DNA from: a virus
Length of the DNA stretch: 38,094 nucleotides
Virus record (IMG/VR): IMGVR_UViG_3300032287_003506
Span: 1-38,094 of that record
Reading direction: 5' to 3' (one strand)
Part shown: in pieces, positions 15,496-25,411 of the stretch
How the letters are laid out: each line of letters opens with the position of its first letter
How positions within the stretch are numbered: the stretch's first letter is position 1
Notes under the pieces: model-generated
What the model saw: only the letters and a program-made list of their open reading frames with translations
The model's database searches: none
What the model was told of the DNA's origin: nothing
Made by a program: the position numbers and the translations under genes

Positions 15496-16040
15496 GTGGT
15501 AGTGTCGCCTCCATGAGTTTCTGAAGCCGTCTGACTCCGAATACTCTCCAGTGCTTTCTGGTAGATACTCCAAGCCCGCACCGCTGGGATAGACAGGTAC
15601 CGCCCAATCTCCCCGAAGTTCATCCCGTCCAGCGTGTGCAGCTCGAACACGCGCAGCTCCTCCTCTTTGCCCTCCAGCGCCCTCTGGTAGATACTCGCCA
15701 GCTCTGAGACATCACCGACGCCCACGGCCCCGGCGTTATCCCTCTCAACCTTGCAGATCATGGCCTGAGTGATAATCACGTCACGGGTCTCCTGCCGTTT
15801 GCTCGCTCGATAGTGATCCTTGATTCGGCTGCGCACGACCAGGCGGGCATAGGCCGACCAGGGGCCACGCGCAGAGTCCCACGAGACGACCGCCGAGAGA
15901 AGCGCCGTGTGCCCCACAGAGACCAATTCCTTGACCTCCTCGGGCTTGTGGCTGAACTCATAGGCGATCAGGCTCGCAATGCCCACGGACGACGCCACGA
16001 GCGCCCTCTGAGAGTCCGTGAGTGGCTGGACACTCGTCAC
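15492..16040 (-). CDS. Sigma-70-like RNA polymerase factor encoded by the phage
   Basis: A 182-aa protein; GTG 16040 was chosen because it overlaps the helicase stop as GTGA, with GGGGGTGGG just upstream. Region 2-like text runs at residues 32-72, with ELVSVGHTALLSAVVSWDSA, RGPWSAYARLVVRSRIKDHY and R, close to the conserved sigma pattern for core binding and -10 recognition. Region 4-like text is EEELRVFELHTLDGMNFGEI then GRYLSIPAVRAWSIYQKALE, a plausible helix-turn-helix for -35 contact. There is no region 1.1. It resembles small alternative sigma factors. In the early operon it could direct host RNA polymerase to the three late promoter-like motifs. That link is inferred. Confidence 0.82.
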   Translation of the reverse strand: MTSVQPLTDSQRALVASSVGIASLIAYEFSHKPEEVKELVSVGHTALLSAVVSWDSARGPWSAYARLVVRSRIKDHYRASKRQETRDVIITQAMICKVERDNAGAVGVGDVSELASIYQRALEGKEEELRVFELHTLDGMNFGEIGRYLSIPAVRAWSIYQKALESIRSQTASETHGGDTTT

Positions 16041-18934
16041 GACCCACCCCCAGACTTTGGCAGGGGACACGTTCGCCGCCACCAGGACGCCAGTGTAAAC
16101 ATCCGGGCTCTCAGCTCAGGCTCCGCCGCTTTGGCCTCCTCATACCGACCAGGCGTGTCGTGCAGAATGCGCAGCTCTTCCAGCTCGGCTTCCAGCTTGG
16201 CCCACACTGCCGCCTGAGAAACGCTTGAGGCAGCGATCTTGCCCGAGTTGAAGTCTCGACGTGTCCACTCGATGAGAGCCTTCTCATAGACTCTGACCGC
16301 CAGCGTGTCGGCGGGGTCATGGTCAGCCTTCGGTGGGGGATTCTCCGGGAAATCGGATATCGAGGGAGCAAGCCCCACCAAGGCAGGCTTTTTCTTAGTT
16401 TCTTCGTTACCGGTTACACCGGTTACACCAGTTACACCAGAATCTATATTTTGTGTATGTGTGCGCGTACGCGTACGTGTGTAATAGGGTTCCGGTGTAA
16501 CCGGTGTAACCCGTAGATGTAGAGGCGGATTTTCCGGTGTAACCTTTGCAGATTCTAAACCGACTTTTTGGGCTTTTTGGGGCTCTCCAGTCGGTTCAGC
16601 CATGTCCAGCTCGTCCGTTTCGTAGGCGATGGCGATCCCGTCCCAGCCCCGAACGGCCTTACCGGCGATCTTACGTACAGGCGACGGCGATCCGCCCGCC
16701 CGTCGAAGTCGCTCGCTGAACTGGTTAGGGGATGCGTGCCACTTCTCCCCATTGTCCTCGCACCAGGTATCGTAGGCGCTCCGGAGTTCCTTGGTCGAGC
16801 ACCAGACGCCAGGACGAGCCACGCAGCACTCCTTAAGAAACTTGCCGATCTGGTCTTGCTCCTCGCGGTAAGAGGCGGAGCTCTCCAGAACGGCCTCGGG
16901 GGTTCCCAGGCCGTGCTCCTGCCACGCCAAGCAGCCCGCCACCATCCAGGCGAAGATCCCGTCTACTTCGGCTTGGAGCTTCGTCAGAAGATGCTTATCG
17001 CGATCCTCTTGAGGAATTGTCACACTCCACTCGATAAGAGGTAGACGCCGCCAGATTCCCTCGTCTTGGTTGCGGATCTGGGGCTTGTGGTTGCCGTAGA
17101 GAGTCAGCTTGAACTTCGGGACAAACTCAAAAGGCGATGCGTGTAAGTGCCGTGCGATAATCACGTCGCCGCCAGTAAGGTCTTTGATCAGGCTCTCATT
17201 GAATCCACGCCCGCCGATGATCTCGGAGCCGATGACCATTCGACGGCCCGCCAGGCGCGCGATATCCGGGCTTGCCTGACCACCCCGAGGTTTATCATCC
17301 GTCAAGACAGCAAAGGGAACGCGAGTCGCATAGTCGCCCATGACGAACTCTTCCATCGAGGTATAGATACTCTTGCCGTTGCCGCCGTCGCCAAAGTGGA
17401 ACGCCACGACCTGCTCGCCGGTTTCCCCGGTCAGGTTGTAGCCGGAGAAGCGCTGGAGGTACCCGCGAATCTCGGTATCAGGCTGCCACGTCGTCAGACA
17501 CTTCTCCCAGAGCGGCGCTTTAGCGTCTTTGTTGTAGCTCGCCTTGCTGATGTACGTGCAGTAGGCTAGGGGATCATGATCCCGTAGGGTTCCCGTCCGA
17601 AGATCGAGGATACCGTTCTGGCAGTTGATCACCATCGTATCGGAATCCCATGTCGAAGCCGTGGCACGAATGCGAGGGTCAGACTTTGCCAGATCCAGAA
17701 ACGAGCGAATCTTTCCCGCCTGGTTGCTTGCCTTGACGAACTGCCGCCAGAGCTGGCACTGCTTCTCGTCCTTGGGCTCTTCCTCTTCATAGAGAGAGCG
17801 GGCCACCATCACCCCAAAGTGCAGCACGGTACCGCCATCCACGTCTTGCTCCCACCGCTTGCCATCCCAGACCATCCAGCCGCGAGTCGGGTCAAAGCGG
17901 ATCTGGTCTGCAAAGTGGGTCAAAAACCGCTCTTTGTTGCCAACGTCCGTCCACTTCTCCGTGATGTACGATTCACCAAGAACACTTCCTGAAACTGCGG
18001 GAACCGATCCCATGAAGTCATCATCTTCGACCTTAGCAAAGTTTCGAGAAGGCAGTCCGGTACTCTTTGGCCTCGGCTCAGTCCTGGTCCAAGGTTGCCG
18101 AGCTGCTCGATTGTTGGCCTGCTCCCAGATGTGCTCCATGTCGTCGTCAAAGTCGGATCCCATGGCGGCCTTAAAGTCAGCAAGGCAGGCAAGCGCTTCG
18201 CCCGCCGAGAAGGCATTGTCGCGGAGTTGGAGAGCCAAGTCAAAGGCGGTTCGATTCCGCCCGCCCGGCCTCGCCAGCCCGATATATTTCTCCAGAAGTT
18301 TCGCACTGGAGACATCGGAAGAAACTGAACCAGCAAGCGATCGCAAAGCCGCAGTAGTATCCTTTGGCTTGACAGGCTCAGGATCGGCAAAGATCGTGTG
18401 ATCCAGAAAGACATCCTCTTCGCCCCCGTGAGCATAAACAAAGGCGTCTTCCAGCCCAGTCTCGGGACACGACGGCCAGAAGTAGATCCGGCTCGGGTCT
18501 TTCGTGGCGGCGTCGCAGTGTCCGCCCATGATCTCTCGATTAAGCTTCGCCCACACAGACGCCCATGCCGAGGCAGGAACAGCCTTCCTCAAGGGAAACA
18601 CTGCCCGCCACTTGGGCTTCTCCGGAGTGGACGAGAAAGACGAGTGGAGAGCCCAGACCAAGCCCGACCAGTTGGGGAGTAGCTCACTCCAGTCGGTACC
18701 GTCATCCACATCGGCGACAAAGCACGTCACCAGCTCGACGCCCGCAGCCCCCCGAGTCTCACCCGGCGCGTAGACAGTCGGAGACCACAGAGAGCCCTTC
18801 GCCTGCTTGCCGTCAGCTTTGGCGGGCTGGACAGTGTGGCGAGCAAACCGGCGCGAGAAAATATCCCACGCCTCAATTTTGCCCACCGGCATCCGATCCA
18901 GAACGCCCGTAAATGTAGAGAAACGTATCAGCAT
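16037..18934 (-). CDS. Primase-helicase, archaeo-eukaryotic primase plus SF3 (D5-type) helicase
   Basis: A 965-aa replication protein, of the type seen in P4-like elements, that unwinds the origin and primes DNA synthesis. The N-terminal primase-like domain shows VADVDDG (about 74-79), LHSSFSSTPEKPKWRAVFPL (96-115) and DAATKDPSRIYFWPS (141-155). A D5-N-like middle is at about 325-500. The helicase shows Walker A GDGGNGKS (515-522), Walker B-like RRMVIGSEI (564-572), a sensor-like LYGNHKP (612-618) and an arginine pair IWRRLP (627-632). The C-terminal part (about 797-841) is a low-complexity linker with VTGVTGVTG and TRTRTRTHT, encoded by the candidate origin. The ATG overlaps the RuvC stop as TAATG. 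Confidence 0.92.
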   Translation of the reverse strand: MLIRFSTFTGVLDRMPVGKIEAWDIFSRRFARHTVQPAKADGKQAKGSLWSPTVYAPGETRGAAGVELVTCFVADVDDGTDWSELLPNWSGLVWALHSSFSSTPEKPKWRAVFPLRKAVPASAWASVWAKLNREIMGGHCDAATKDPSRIYFWPSCPETGLEDAFVYAHGGEEDVFLDHTIFADPEPVKPKDTTAALRSLAGSVSSDVSSAKLLEKYIGLARPGGRNRTAFDLALQLRDNAFSAGEALACLADFKAAMGSDFDDDMEHIWEQANNRAARQPWTRTEPRPKSTGLPSRNFAKVEDDDFMGSVPAVSGSVLGESYITEKWTDVGNKERFLTHFADQIRFDPTRGWMVWDGKRWEQDVDGGTVLHFGVMVARSLYEEEEPKDEKQCQLWRQFVKASNQAGKIRSFLDLAKSDPRIRATASTWDSDTMVINCQNGILDLRTGTLRDHDPLAYCTYISKASYNKDAKAPLWEKCLTTWQPDTEIRGYLQRFSGYNLTGETGEQVVAFHFGDGGNGKSIYTSMEEFVMGDYATRVPFAVLTDDKPRGGQASPDIARLAGRRMVIGSEIIGGRGFNESLIKDLTGGDVIIARHLHASPFEFVPKFKLTLYGNHKPQIRNQDEGIWRRLPLIEWSVTIPQEDRDKHLLTKLQAEVDGIFAWMVAGCLAWQEHGLGTPEAVLESSASYREEQDQIGKFLKECCVARPGVWCSTKELRSAYDTWCEDNGEKWHASPNQFSERLRRAGGSPSPVRKIAGKAVRGWDGIAIAYETDELDMAEPTGEPQKAQKVGLESAKVTPENPPLHLRVTPVTPEPYYTRTRTRTHTQNIDSGVTGVTGVTGNEETKKKPALVGLAPSISDFPENPPPKADHDPADTLAVRVYEKALIEWTRRDFNSGKIAASSVSQAAVWAKLEAELEELRILHDTPGRYEEAKAAEPELRARMFTLASWWRRTCPLPKSGGGS
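16405..16544. other. Candidate replication origin: iterons and alternating purine-pyrimidine tract
   Basis: Three tandem 9-bp repeats, GGTTACACC (16412-16420, 16421-16429) and AGTTACACC (16430-16438), face three copies in the opposite orientation, GGTGTAACC (16494-16502, 16503-16511, 16536-16544). A partial unit lies at 16405-16411. Between the groups is a 32-bp strictly alternating pyrimidine-purine tract (16452-16483) with a 12-bp palindrome CGTACGCGTACG (16466-16477) and an AT-rich stretch. The pattern resembles initiator binding iterons flanking an unwinding region. It lies inside the helicase coding frame. Function as an origin is inferred. Confidence 0.6.
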
Positions 18935-19775: not shown

Positions 19776-19942
19776 TTGCTCACCTTGCTCTCGGTCGTGG
19801 TAGAGACCAATACGCCAGAGCCAACTCGGGGAGTCGTCAGGATGTCGTCGAGGAGTCGGTTCACCACCGTCAGGAGAGAGGCTTTCTCCCCGCCTGGAGT
19901 GAACTCGACGACTATCTCGACGGGTTTCTGGGTAGACTTCAC
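19772..19942 (-). CDS. Small protein overlapping ParB-like gene (56 aa)
   Basis: A 56-residue gene from GTG 19942 (overlapping the ParB-like stop as GTGA) to the TGA at 19772-19774, which overlaps the next GTG. It reads MKSTQKPVEIVVEFTPGGEK and ends TTTESKVSK. The neighbouring long frame in another phase is a shadow. The two coupled overlaps and the plausible short beta/helix layout support it as real. No family is recognised. It explains a 160-bp gap between two well-supported genes. Confidence 0.65.
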   Translation of the reverse strand: MKSTQKPVEIVVEFTPGGEKASLLTVVNRLLDDILTTPRVGSGVLVSTTTESKVSK

Positions 19943-20712
19943 TTCTTCTCACCCTCCAGCTCACGAAGACGCATAAGCGCCTTATCCACCGATCCGTACT
20001 TCGTGCGAGCCCACCAGTAAATCTCAATCTCAGCCGGAGGAGCCTGCCGCTCTGTCCCTGTCTTCTCCGCCCGGACTTTCTCACGAACGACGTACTCGGG
20101 AGCCTTCTCACGCGCGCACTCGTTGGCAATCGCAGTAATGCGCTTTGTCGGGGTTCCCGCCTGGACGAGCTCCACCAGGGGACGAGCCGCCTCTTTAGAC
20201 AGCTCTTTCGTCGTGATCTGGGTCTGCACCGAGGCGGGCAGGGTCAGAAAGCCCAGCTCGCGATGAACATGGGCATCCGTCACACCGACAGCCTTTGAAA
20301 TCTCTCTCTGGCTCATGCCCATTCGTCGCAGGCGATCAAAGGCCCGTGCCCTCTCCAGAGGATCAAGCGCTTTTCGGTGGAGGTTTTCGACAATCGCCGA
20401 CACCAGATCCCCGGCAGCTATCTCCGCCTCGGGACGCCACGGGAGGCACAGACAGAGGGTTTCCTTAATCCCGACATCGTTTCCCGCCATGACCCGACGA
20501 TGACCCGCCACGATGTAGAACTTCCCCGGTTCCTTGGCAGCTCGCACAAGAGGCGGCTGGAGAATCCCGGATTGCTTGACGGATTGAATGAGATCGAAGT
20601 CCGCCGAGTTATCCTTGATGGTTCTGGGATTGTGCCCAGGGCGAACCATGAGGGACTCCAGGGCGACGACCTTAGCCACGGCGACGTTCTCGGGTTTCGT
20701 GCTCGTGCTCAT
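19939..20712 (-). CDS. ParB/Spo0J-like DNA-binding protein
   Basis: A 257-aa protein; ATG 20712 overlaps the preceding stop as ATGA and starts MSTSTKPENVAVAKVVALES. The N-terminal ParB-like domain shows VRPGHNPRTIKDN (about 25-37), SGILQPPLVRA and VAGHRRVMAGNDVG (GHRR in place of the GERR box), and ENLHRKALDPLERARAFDRL. A helix-turn-helix is at RRMGMSQREISKAVGVTDAH then VHREL. It ends with a charged tail. No ParA partner is in the genome. Orphan ParB-like proteins in phages may act as regulators, nucleases or replication factors, so partition is not assured. It is the first larger gene of the early operon. Confidence 0.82.
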   Translation of the reverse strand: MSTSTKPENVAVAKVVALESLMVRPGHNPRTIKDNSADFDLIQSVKQSGILQPPLVRAAKEPGKFYIVAGHRRVMAGNDVGIKETLCLCLPWRPEAEIAAGDLVSAIVENLHRKALDPLERARAFDRLRRMGMSQREISKAVGVTDAHVHRELGFLTLPASVQTQITTKELSKEAARPLVELVQAGTPTKRITAIANECAREKAPEYVVREKVRAEKTGTERQAPPAEIEIYWWARTKYGSVDKALMRLRELEGEKK

Positions 20713-21041
20713 CGTGCCCCCCGTCGAGTCCAAGGACTAGGAGACACGGCCCAGGCGAGGAGCCAGAAGAAAGCCAGAGCGCCCAGGGCGAGACCCTTCC
20801 CGACAGAAGTCCCGTGGTCAAGAGTCGGAGCCACCGCCAGGATAAGCCAGGCAATGGAGAAGAGGCGGAGCCAGAGCGCCACATTGAAGCGAATCTCCCG
20901 CAGCTTCTCTTCCTTGCGCAACATCTGAGCAATGGTCGTCAAGAGGCGAAGAGAGCCAACCTCACACGCCGCACAGTAGGAATAATGAACAGGACAAGCA
21001 CCACCACACCGGGCGCACCGTCCGAAGCGAATCATACTCAT
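20709..21041 (-). CDS. Zinc-ribbon membrane protein
   Basis: A 110-aa protein, MSMIRFGRCARCGGACPVHY. The first 27 residues carry two CxxC pairs (CARC, CAAC), as in a small zinc ribbon. Two hydrophobic segments follow, at about 57-72 (LRLFSIAWLILAVAP) and 84-101 (GLALGALAFFWLLAWAV). The N-terminal domain is probably cytoplasmic. The start overlaps the preceding stop (ATGA) and its stop overlaps the ParB-like start. The role is unknown. The 68-aa late protein at 9229-9435 has a membrane helix followed by a CxxC, so the two may be loosely related. Confidence 0.68.
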   Translation of the reverse strand: MSMIRFGRCARCGGACPVHYSYCAACEVGSLRLLTTIAQMLRKEEKLREIRFNVALWLRLFSIAWLILAVAPTLDHGTSVGKGLALGALAFFWLLAWAVSPSPWTRRGAR

Positions 21042-23815: not shown

Positions 23816-25411
23816 ATGACAGTAGCACTCTATGCCCGTGTCTCCAGTGACGACCAGGCCGACCGGGAGACAATCAAAGATCAAATCCTACTCTATGAGA
23901 AGTGGATTGACCTACACGGCCACCAGGACGGCGGGCGGTACCTCGACGACGGCGTGACGGGAACCCTGCCCATGTCCGACCGGCCTGGGGGCTCGAAGCT
24001 CCTGGAGGCGATCAAGCGCCGGGAAGTGTCCGCCGTTGCCTTCAAAAACGTCAAACGCCTCGGGAGAAAAACCAGAGTCGTCCTGGACTTCATCGAGTCG
24101 TGCGACCAGGCGGGCGCAACCATCACCAGTATCACCGAACCCTTCAGCACCGCCGACGCCATTGGCCGTTTCATCGTGACCATTCTCGCCTCAATCTCCG
24201 AGCTGGACCGGGAGAACATCCTGGAGCAGACACGCGCCGGAATGAGGCGACGCGCGCGAGAGGGAGGCTGGCTTGGTGGCAAGTGCGCCTATGGGTATCG
24301 GATCGAGGGGAAACGCCATCAGGCCCACCTTGTCCTCGGCCCCGAGTCCGAGCAGCAGCTCGTCCGCGAGATCTTCCAGGAGCTCGCCAAAGGGGGATCA
24401 TGCGACGCTATGGCGATCCGGCTCACCGCCCAGGGCGTTCCCTCCTGGAGTGGGAAGTGCTGGAGTGCTGCCGTCGTCTCTCGTATGATCCAGAACCCCG
24501 TCTATCGCGGCCAGCACCGCCACGGCGACGCGGTAGGGGGCAGTGTCCTTCCCGTCACTTTCTCGCCAGCTCCCCGTATCGTCGAGGATGGGCTCTGGCA
24601 GAGAGCAAACGACCAGATCGAGAAGAACCGACGGCTCCGAGGAAGAGCAGCAAAGAGACTTTATCTTCTTCGCGGGCTCCTGTGGTGTGGCGAGTGTGGA
24701 CATGCCTACACGGGCCTGACGATGAACCCAGACCAGGCGGACGCCACCGACCACGCCAAAGGGATAATCTACCGATGCAACTGGAGAGCCGGAGGCCACC
24801 GCCAGCCAGAAGGGGAGAAGTGCAGCTCGCCCTCTATGCCCGGCTCAATCGAGGCGGATGTCTGGAGAGCCGTCTCTGGCATACTCCAGCGCCCCCAAGT
24901 GCTCGCAGAAGCCTTCCGTGAGCGAATACACGCCCCCACGCCCGTCCCAGACCTCACAAGGCTCCAGACGGCCCTAGCCGACCGAGAAGAGCAACGAGCC
25001 CGAATCCTCTCCCTGTATCGCCGAGGAACCATCACCGAGACCGAGCTGGACGAGCAGATAGACGATCTCATGGCGGAGACCGAAGCGCTACGAGGCCAGC
25101 TTGAAGCGCTGCGCATGGACGCCGAGAAGATCGCCCTCGCCGACAAAGAAGCCCAGATGGCGGTCTTAGAAGTCGAAACCCTTGCCGAGACCCTCCAGGG
25201 AAGACTGGAGAGCCTGACGAGGGAAGAGAGATCCGTGGTGATAAACGCCCTCGTCGAGAAGATCGTGGTGGAGAAAACCCAGGAGAGAGCCCGCCTCCGA
25301 ATACGCTTCCGCTTTGATAGACCGATCCAACATGAGGGACAGATTAACCTACTCCAGCAAATGGTTTCGGAATGGAACCTGCCCGAGCTGGAGAAACGGC
25401 TCAAAGGATAA
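23816..25411 (+). CDS. Large serine recombinase (phage integrase)
   Basis: A 531-aa protein of the large serine integrase family. The catalytic domain has YARVSSDDQ with Ser10 as nucleophile and the typical EPFSTADAIGRFIVTILASI then SELDRENILEQTRAGMRRRA. The recombinase domain has YGYRIEGKRHQ and RMIQNPVYRGQHRHG. The zinc ribbon shows LLWCGECGHAYTG and later RCNWRAGG, with C-terminal helices forming a coiled coil (LQTALADREEQRARILSLYR). It joins phage attP to host attB through a Ser-linked intermediate. The gene is 6 bp after the peptidase and ends at a terminator. No attP was identified. Confidence 0.95.
   Translation: MTVALYARVSSDDQADRETIKDQILLYEKWIDLHGHQDGGRYLDDGVTGTLPMSDRPGGSKLLEAIKRREVSAVAFKNVKRLGRKTRVVLDFIESCDQAGATITSITEPFSTADAIGRFIVTILASISELDRENILEQTRAGMRRRAREGGWLGGKCAYGYRIEGKRHQAHLVLGPESEQQLVREIFQELAKGGSCDAMAIRLTAQGVPSWSGKCWSAAVVSRMIQNPVYRGQHRHGDAVGGSVLPVTFSPAPRIVEDGLWQRANDQIEKNRRLRGRAAKRLYLLRGLLWCGECGHAYTGLTMNPDQADATDHAKGIIYRCNWRAGGHRQPEGEKCSSPSMPGSIEADVWRAVSGILQRPQVLAEAFRERIHAPTPVPDLTRLQTALADREEQRARILSLYRRGTITETELDEQIDDLMAETEALRGQLEALRMDAEKIALADKEAQMAVLEVETLAETLQGRLESLTREERSVVINALVEKIVVEKTQERARLRIRFRFDRPIQHEGQINLLQQMVSEWNLPELEKRLKG

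Follow-up and report, generated by a model that had tools for sequence, protein, structure and literature searches.

Inverted iterons beside P4-family helicases

In the P4 family of replication helicases a winged-helix or C-terminal domain recognizes iterons, perhaps as two hexamers, and unwinding follows (SaPI Rep and Cch2; PMC7581432). The alpha protein of phage P4 follows this pattern of iteron recognition and unwinding, as summarized in PMC4234260. In the Staphylococcus aureus pathogenicity islands (SaPIs) the C-terminal domain of Rep recognizes iterons directly downstream of the rep gene (PMC7581432). In an E. coli phage-inducible chromosomal island (PICI) the array 3' of pri-rep is part of a functional replicon, and a PICI array at the equivalent position has been described as ori itself (PMC6092414). 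Here we analyse a virus record, IMGVR_UViG_3300032287_003506 (IMG/VR; all 38,094 nucleotides, denoted the window, were scanned for repeats), which carries inverted 9-bp repeats inside the coding sequence of a P4-family (D5-type) helicase. Very probably these repeats are the initiator-binding iteron array of a phage replication origin, or a cis-acting replication element resembling P4 crr; we infer both the binding and the origin activity.

P4 alpha belongs to the same helicase family as the window gene, and crr has the same layout: 8-bp iterons in inverted arrays, with ~9-bp steps, directly past the 3' end of the helicase gene. Its units are TGTTCACC and GGTGAACA, the latter similar to GGTGTAAC of the window. 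However, the P4 array lies outside the alpha gene and a second site carries the same units, whereas the window has a single array, located in the helicase coding sequence. In the pri-rep-ori replicons of PICIs and SaPIs (e.g. EcCICFT073) the array, with the unit GTCTACC, follows the gene and its function has been demonstrated; in the window it is predicted from sequence. The ori of phage lambda lies in gene O, so that its iterons are within initiator coding sequence as in the window, but lambda has four same-strand 18-bp iterons and O is not a helicase, whereas the window has 3 + 3 inverted 9-bp iterons in a helicase gene. In the IncU plasmid RA3, part of oriV overlaps the 3' end of repB, the gene for the initiator, a placement similar to that in the window, although initiator and repeats are different (PMC9455977).

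That origins can lie inside initiator genes (lambda O and, in part, RA3 repB; PMC9455977) is already known, as are inverted iteron origins adjoining P4-family helicases. The first-pass annotation of the window had proposed an origin within its own initiator gene; the in-gene array is indeed present but the arrangement is not unique, lambda O being the classic case. In-gene placement in the P4/D5 family looks new. A search of the open literature, with most subscription literature outside its reach, found neither this placement nor its recurrence described, and no account of the position rule given below.

An inverted iteron array in the helicase gene

The array consists of the following elements (window coordinates):

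16412..16438, minus strand: first array, a tandem of three GGTGTAACC-type iterons at 9-bp steps, encoding GVTGVTGVT
16439..16493, no strand: spacer between the arrays, putative opening region, 55 bp, 44% GC
16452..16483, no strand: alternating purine-pyrimidine tract, 32 nt, the longest of the window
16494..16511, plus strand: second array, a tandem pair of exact GGTGTAACC iterons; the minus strand reads VTPVTP
16536..16544, plus strand: outlying third plus-strand iteron, encoding VTP within KVTPE

The six 9-bp repeats, three per strand, that had been noted in the helicase gene are borne out, five as exact copies of GGTGTAACC and one with a mismatch. The minus-strand copies occupy 16412–16420, 16421–16429 and 16430–16438 (the last with one mismatch), the plus-strand copies 16494–16502, 16503–16511 and 16536–16544. 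The copy at 16536–16544 lies 33 bp from the nearest copy and is not in the 9-bp tandem. GTGTAAC forms the densest 7-mer cluster of the 38 kb, with six copies in ~130 bp; the next, unrelated cluster has three. The spacer was expected to be both AT-rich and alternating. The alternation is perfect over 32 nt (the runner-up in the window is 13 nt), but the region is not pure A+T, and its 44% GC against ~58% in the surroundings makes it only moderately AT-rich. A promoter scan gave one weak promoter-like match within the array, and a terminator scan at the array gave none.

Two related genes, L004 and L126 (~61–63% protein identity to the helicase), keep both arms, while most other codons and residues of the linker differ. 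The inner cores are 59 bp apart, a distance shared exactly by L004/L009 and L126/L156, and an alternating purine-pyrimidine run is found at the equivalent place (24 nt in L004, 22 nt in L126). Both genes have two extra unit copies further 5'. By these comparisons the array architecture is clearly conserved in the lineage.

The single strand of the array region folds far better than shuffled sequences (−31.2 kcal/mol, z −5.0), as it would if the inverted arms were a hairpin or cruciform signal and not protein-binding units. We consider this most unlikely: such pairing is expected of any inverted iteron array, and the copies that are out of stem register (16536 in the window and the two further 5' in L004 and L126) are better understood as binding units.

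Selection on the DNA of the repeats

In the coding direction GTT ACA CCG (VTP) is read in one arm and GGT GTA AC(N) (GVT) in the other. This difference in Val-Thr codons between the two arms is exactly what an inverted repeat in the DNA demands. The gene has five GTA valine codons, three of them in the array, and the mirror arm uses GTT. When the gene was recoded synonymously 200,000 times, keeping the protein unchanged and the codon usage of the gene, no recoding had more than three copies of the unit, compared with the six observed. Across the nine VTG-arm copies of the three genes (window, L004 and L126), GTA AC is preceded by GGT, GAT, GCT or ACT; the residue before the TGTAAC core varies (G/D/A/T) but the silent third base is invariably T. 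Over the array segment as a whole silent-codon identity is only mildly raised (14/19 and 14/20 codons identical, against little over half elsewhere), since no constraint falls on the ninth base or the spacer and the signal sits in the core positions. Together these data clearly indicate selection on the repeats at the DNA level, as the first-pass annotation had supposed when it took the VTG/VTP residues for a probable by-product and proposed, as a test, to look for conserved silent sites alongside varying residues.

The helicase and its predicted domains

The gene around the array is annotated as follows:

16037..18934, minus strand: P4-family (D5_N / TIGR01613) helicase gene, 965 amino acids, by profile matches
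16619..16840, minus strand: predicted winged-helix DNA-binding domain, residues ~699–772 (AlphaFold model, Foldseek)
16349..16615, minus strand: predicted disordered linker with the repeat array, residues 774–862 (AlphaFold confidence)
16070..16306, minus strand: C-terminal helical domain beyond the array, residues ~877–955 (AlphaFold model)

The protein scores above the curated cut-off of TIGR01613 (phage/plasmid primase, P4 family; 267.8 bits, cut-off 108.7) and above that of PF08706 (D5_N; 102.8 bits, cut-off 22.4). Two side models fall slightly under their cut-offs, PF19263 with 27.5 (27.6) and PF03288 with 19 (21.4). It also matches PHROG DNA primase/helicase families. The gene had been called a helicase-primase; the helicase is established by TIGR01613, PF08706 and PHROG, and a primase domain in residues 1–315 is putative.

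In the AlphaFold model the predicted local distance difference test (pLDDT) score is mostly 74–90 in 10-residue blocks of the winged-helix domain. The best small-domain structural match of this domain in Foldseek is the RFX winged-helix DNA-binding domain (1dp7; template modelling score 0.74 by target length, E 0.02). The linker has pLDDT < 50 (model residues 115–143 and 145–203), and the blocks of the C-terminal helical domain are mostly at 82–94. A tblastn search of phage records with the C-terminal tail gave no match. The array is at residues ~798–842, close behind the helicase domain, where P4 crr and the PICIs also have inverted iteron arrays with 8–12-bp steps; its end lies ~380 bp upstream of the helicase stop codon and not, as in P4 and the PICIs, after it.

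Array position at D5 helicase loci

Arrays of other units lie directly 3' of the D5 helicase gene in Listeria phage PSA (AACTATCCACC), phiEG37K (GTGAATAGT), mycobacteriophage Bryler (GGCACAGAT) and Microcystis phage Mae-JY02 (GGGGAAGAT), and the E. coli CFT073 PICI has its GTCTACC array 3' of pri-rep. The 74 D5 loci that we examined were chosen without regard to repeats. A set of 399 Pseudomonadota genomes and one of 300 genomes from the phylum of G061 (a Colidextribacter genome) supplied 29 each; the other 16 are from plasmid and phage records that were picked by similarity to the window helicase. The 1,500 bp upstream were scanned as well. With strict criteria, which asked for two or more copies in each orientation and at least two tandem 8–12-bp steps, 18 of the 74 loci have an array, and all 18 arrays are centred 0–500 bp past the helicase domain; L313 and L324 carry an identical array and may be redundant in these counts. 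Relaxed criteria gave arrays at 30 loci, again all centred in this interval, and shuffled sequences gave none (0/370).

Most D5 genes end within ~40 codons of the helicase domain, ahead of the array. The arrays are thus usually 3' of the gene, with lineage-specific units, and within it where the protein tail is long. On the evidence of these sequences, the position adjoining the helicase domain is clearly conserved, and the conserved quantity is the distance from helicase domain to array. The window array occupies this usual place of P4-family origin or crr arrays, which supports the initial suggestion of an iteron-type origin. Two loci depart from the rule: a Thermaerobacter plasmid (L242) has a GTTCACA inverted array ~3 kb upstream of the end of the helicase domain, and L154 has a TGTAACA inverted array ~1.3 kb upstream of the helicase domain.

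A gene for a ParB-like protein is found at 19939–20733 of the window. Its distance from the array, 3.4 kb, might suggest that the repeats are a centromere-like or operator array for another protein such as this one. We think this very unlikely. In many unrelated lineages the array keeps its position with respect to the helicase domain, and no ParB-like match was found in L009, L126 and L156, stretches of two related, partial contigs in which the array is kept. A ParB site is unsupported, as the related contig stretches examined have no ParB-like match.

In-gene arrays in other lineages

In-gene arrays evidently recur in other lineages. Besides the window trio, the coding tail contains all or most of the array in L268, L272, L288, L297 and L299, with unrelated units, and in L246 and L243 the array straddles the stop codon. 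In L136 it separates the helicase from a region whose translation resembles a DNA polymerase; the first arm is in another frame and encodes GYSGYT. The L136 gene (3–3851) encodes a helicase of D5 type, with what appears to be an intein boundary, and continues in a single frame into the polymerase-like region; the linker holds the inverted array.

L272 and L288 are 78% identical homologues. TGAAACG in L272 is TGTTACG in L288 in every copy of both inverted arms, all within coding sequence, with the consequence that E becomes V in one arm and F becomes N in the other. Such a switch is not easily caused by the protein, and a change of shared DNA-binding specificity can produce it. The pair would be a natural system of initiator–iteron co-evolution; since the DNA site is also protein-coding, a comparison base by base can separate DNA-level from protein-level selection. 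L288 comes from a genome (G153) with three D5 helicase genes (L267, L288 and L291), and the in-gene arrays of L288 and L291 are related but different, a natural set for specificity tests.

These arrays bear on the notion that the window repeats merely reflect a low-complexity VTG/VTP protein linker and have no role as DNA. VTP-type protein repeats in some phage genes (L142, L151) do fit the DNA pattern. As the sole explanation, however, it is refuted by the recoding and comparative data, and we regard it as extremely improbable: recoding reached at most three of the six copies, comparable arrays are intergenic elsewhere, L136 uses another frame, the L272/L288 switch is concerted, and a variable residue goes with a constant silent base.

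Inverted GTTACA arrays in wider collections

The viral collection has 55 stretches with the exact pattern GTTACA-N3-GTTACA-N(45–75)-TGTAAC-N3-TGTAAC, compared with one for the reversed control pattern. Most are intergenic and many have A+T-rich spacers. Among 399 Pseudomonadota genomes only the centre genome has a match, so the exact unit is rare in chromosomes. D5 genes are near the array in L174, L192, L211 and L234; other helicase or primase neighbours are VapE-like (L127, L138, L143) or belong to DUF5906 (L153), DUF3987 (L145) or a primase family (L219). Near-identical arrays in L015, L038, L098, L141 and L160 lie between genes of 296 and 354 amino acids without a family match, and no recognized helicase adjoins them.

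Several matches in metagenome-assembled genomes look like dispersed repeats. One Limisphaerales genome (L179, L190, L197, L198, L204–L206, L236) and one Prevotella genome (L200–L202, L215, L229, L233, L237) each have many of them, apparently intergenic families unrelated to phage origins. L139, L146, L162, L220 and L224 share a ~97-bp element that combines GTTACA/TGTAAC copies in inverted orientation with a core resembling CCTCTAGAGG. In L139 and L224 it is beside or overlaps a gene similar to the terminase large subunit, and its carriers include Thioclava and Porphyrobacter contigs.

A model for initiation at the array

By analogy with the characterized family members, we infer helicase binding, spacer melting and initiation at the array. 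In each inverted arm the GGTGTAAC units would be bound by the winged-helix domain (residues ~699–772); a pair of helicase rings, facing each other, would assemble across the spacer, which would melt, and bidirectional unwinding would follow. In the window lineage the gene has no stop codon ahead of the array, and the frame continues as a predicted disordered linker into the C-terminal helical domain. Because the linker is disordered, the constraint on the DNA can be tolerated in the protein.

Several observations weigh against an origin at this site. The E-value of 0.02 makes the winged-helix structural match weak. The GC skew, from which support for the origin had been expected, has no sign change at the array (16.4 kb). 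Even under relaxed criteria 44 of the 74 D5 loci have no array. Nor are all inverted GTTACA arrays origins, as they also occur in the protein-repeat genes L142 and L151 and beside terminase genes in L139 and L224. Finally, P4 crr is distinct from the annotated P4 origin, so the window array could likewise act in cis without being the place where replication starts. The crr annotation of P4 belongs to the array directly 3' of alpha, and the annotated origin, with identical units, is ~4.5 kb away; by this precedent the helicase would bind the window array and initiate at another site. We judge this to be possible but rather unlikely. The PICI array at the equivalent position is described as ori (PMC6092414), and the 38-kb window, a contig that may lack one end, has no second cluster of the unit. 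It is because the contig has no second array that we prefer a start site to a crr-like element.

The placement of the iterons may reflect a wider rule, towards which we lean by a small measure. In P4/D5 replicons the origin would be found a short distance behind the winged-helix domain, stop codon or not; reading frames would repeatedly have run through origins, and unit turnover would be concerted across both arms, tracking the binding domain. The array offers a sequence-only route to origins and initiator–site pairs in a very common replicon family. If the family-wide rule is true, many uncultured phages and plasmids would have origins and initiator specificities that sequence alone could reveal.

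Elsewhere in the window, 23816–25411 encodes a large serine recombinase, for which the best curated models are CcrB/CcrC, under cut-off.
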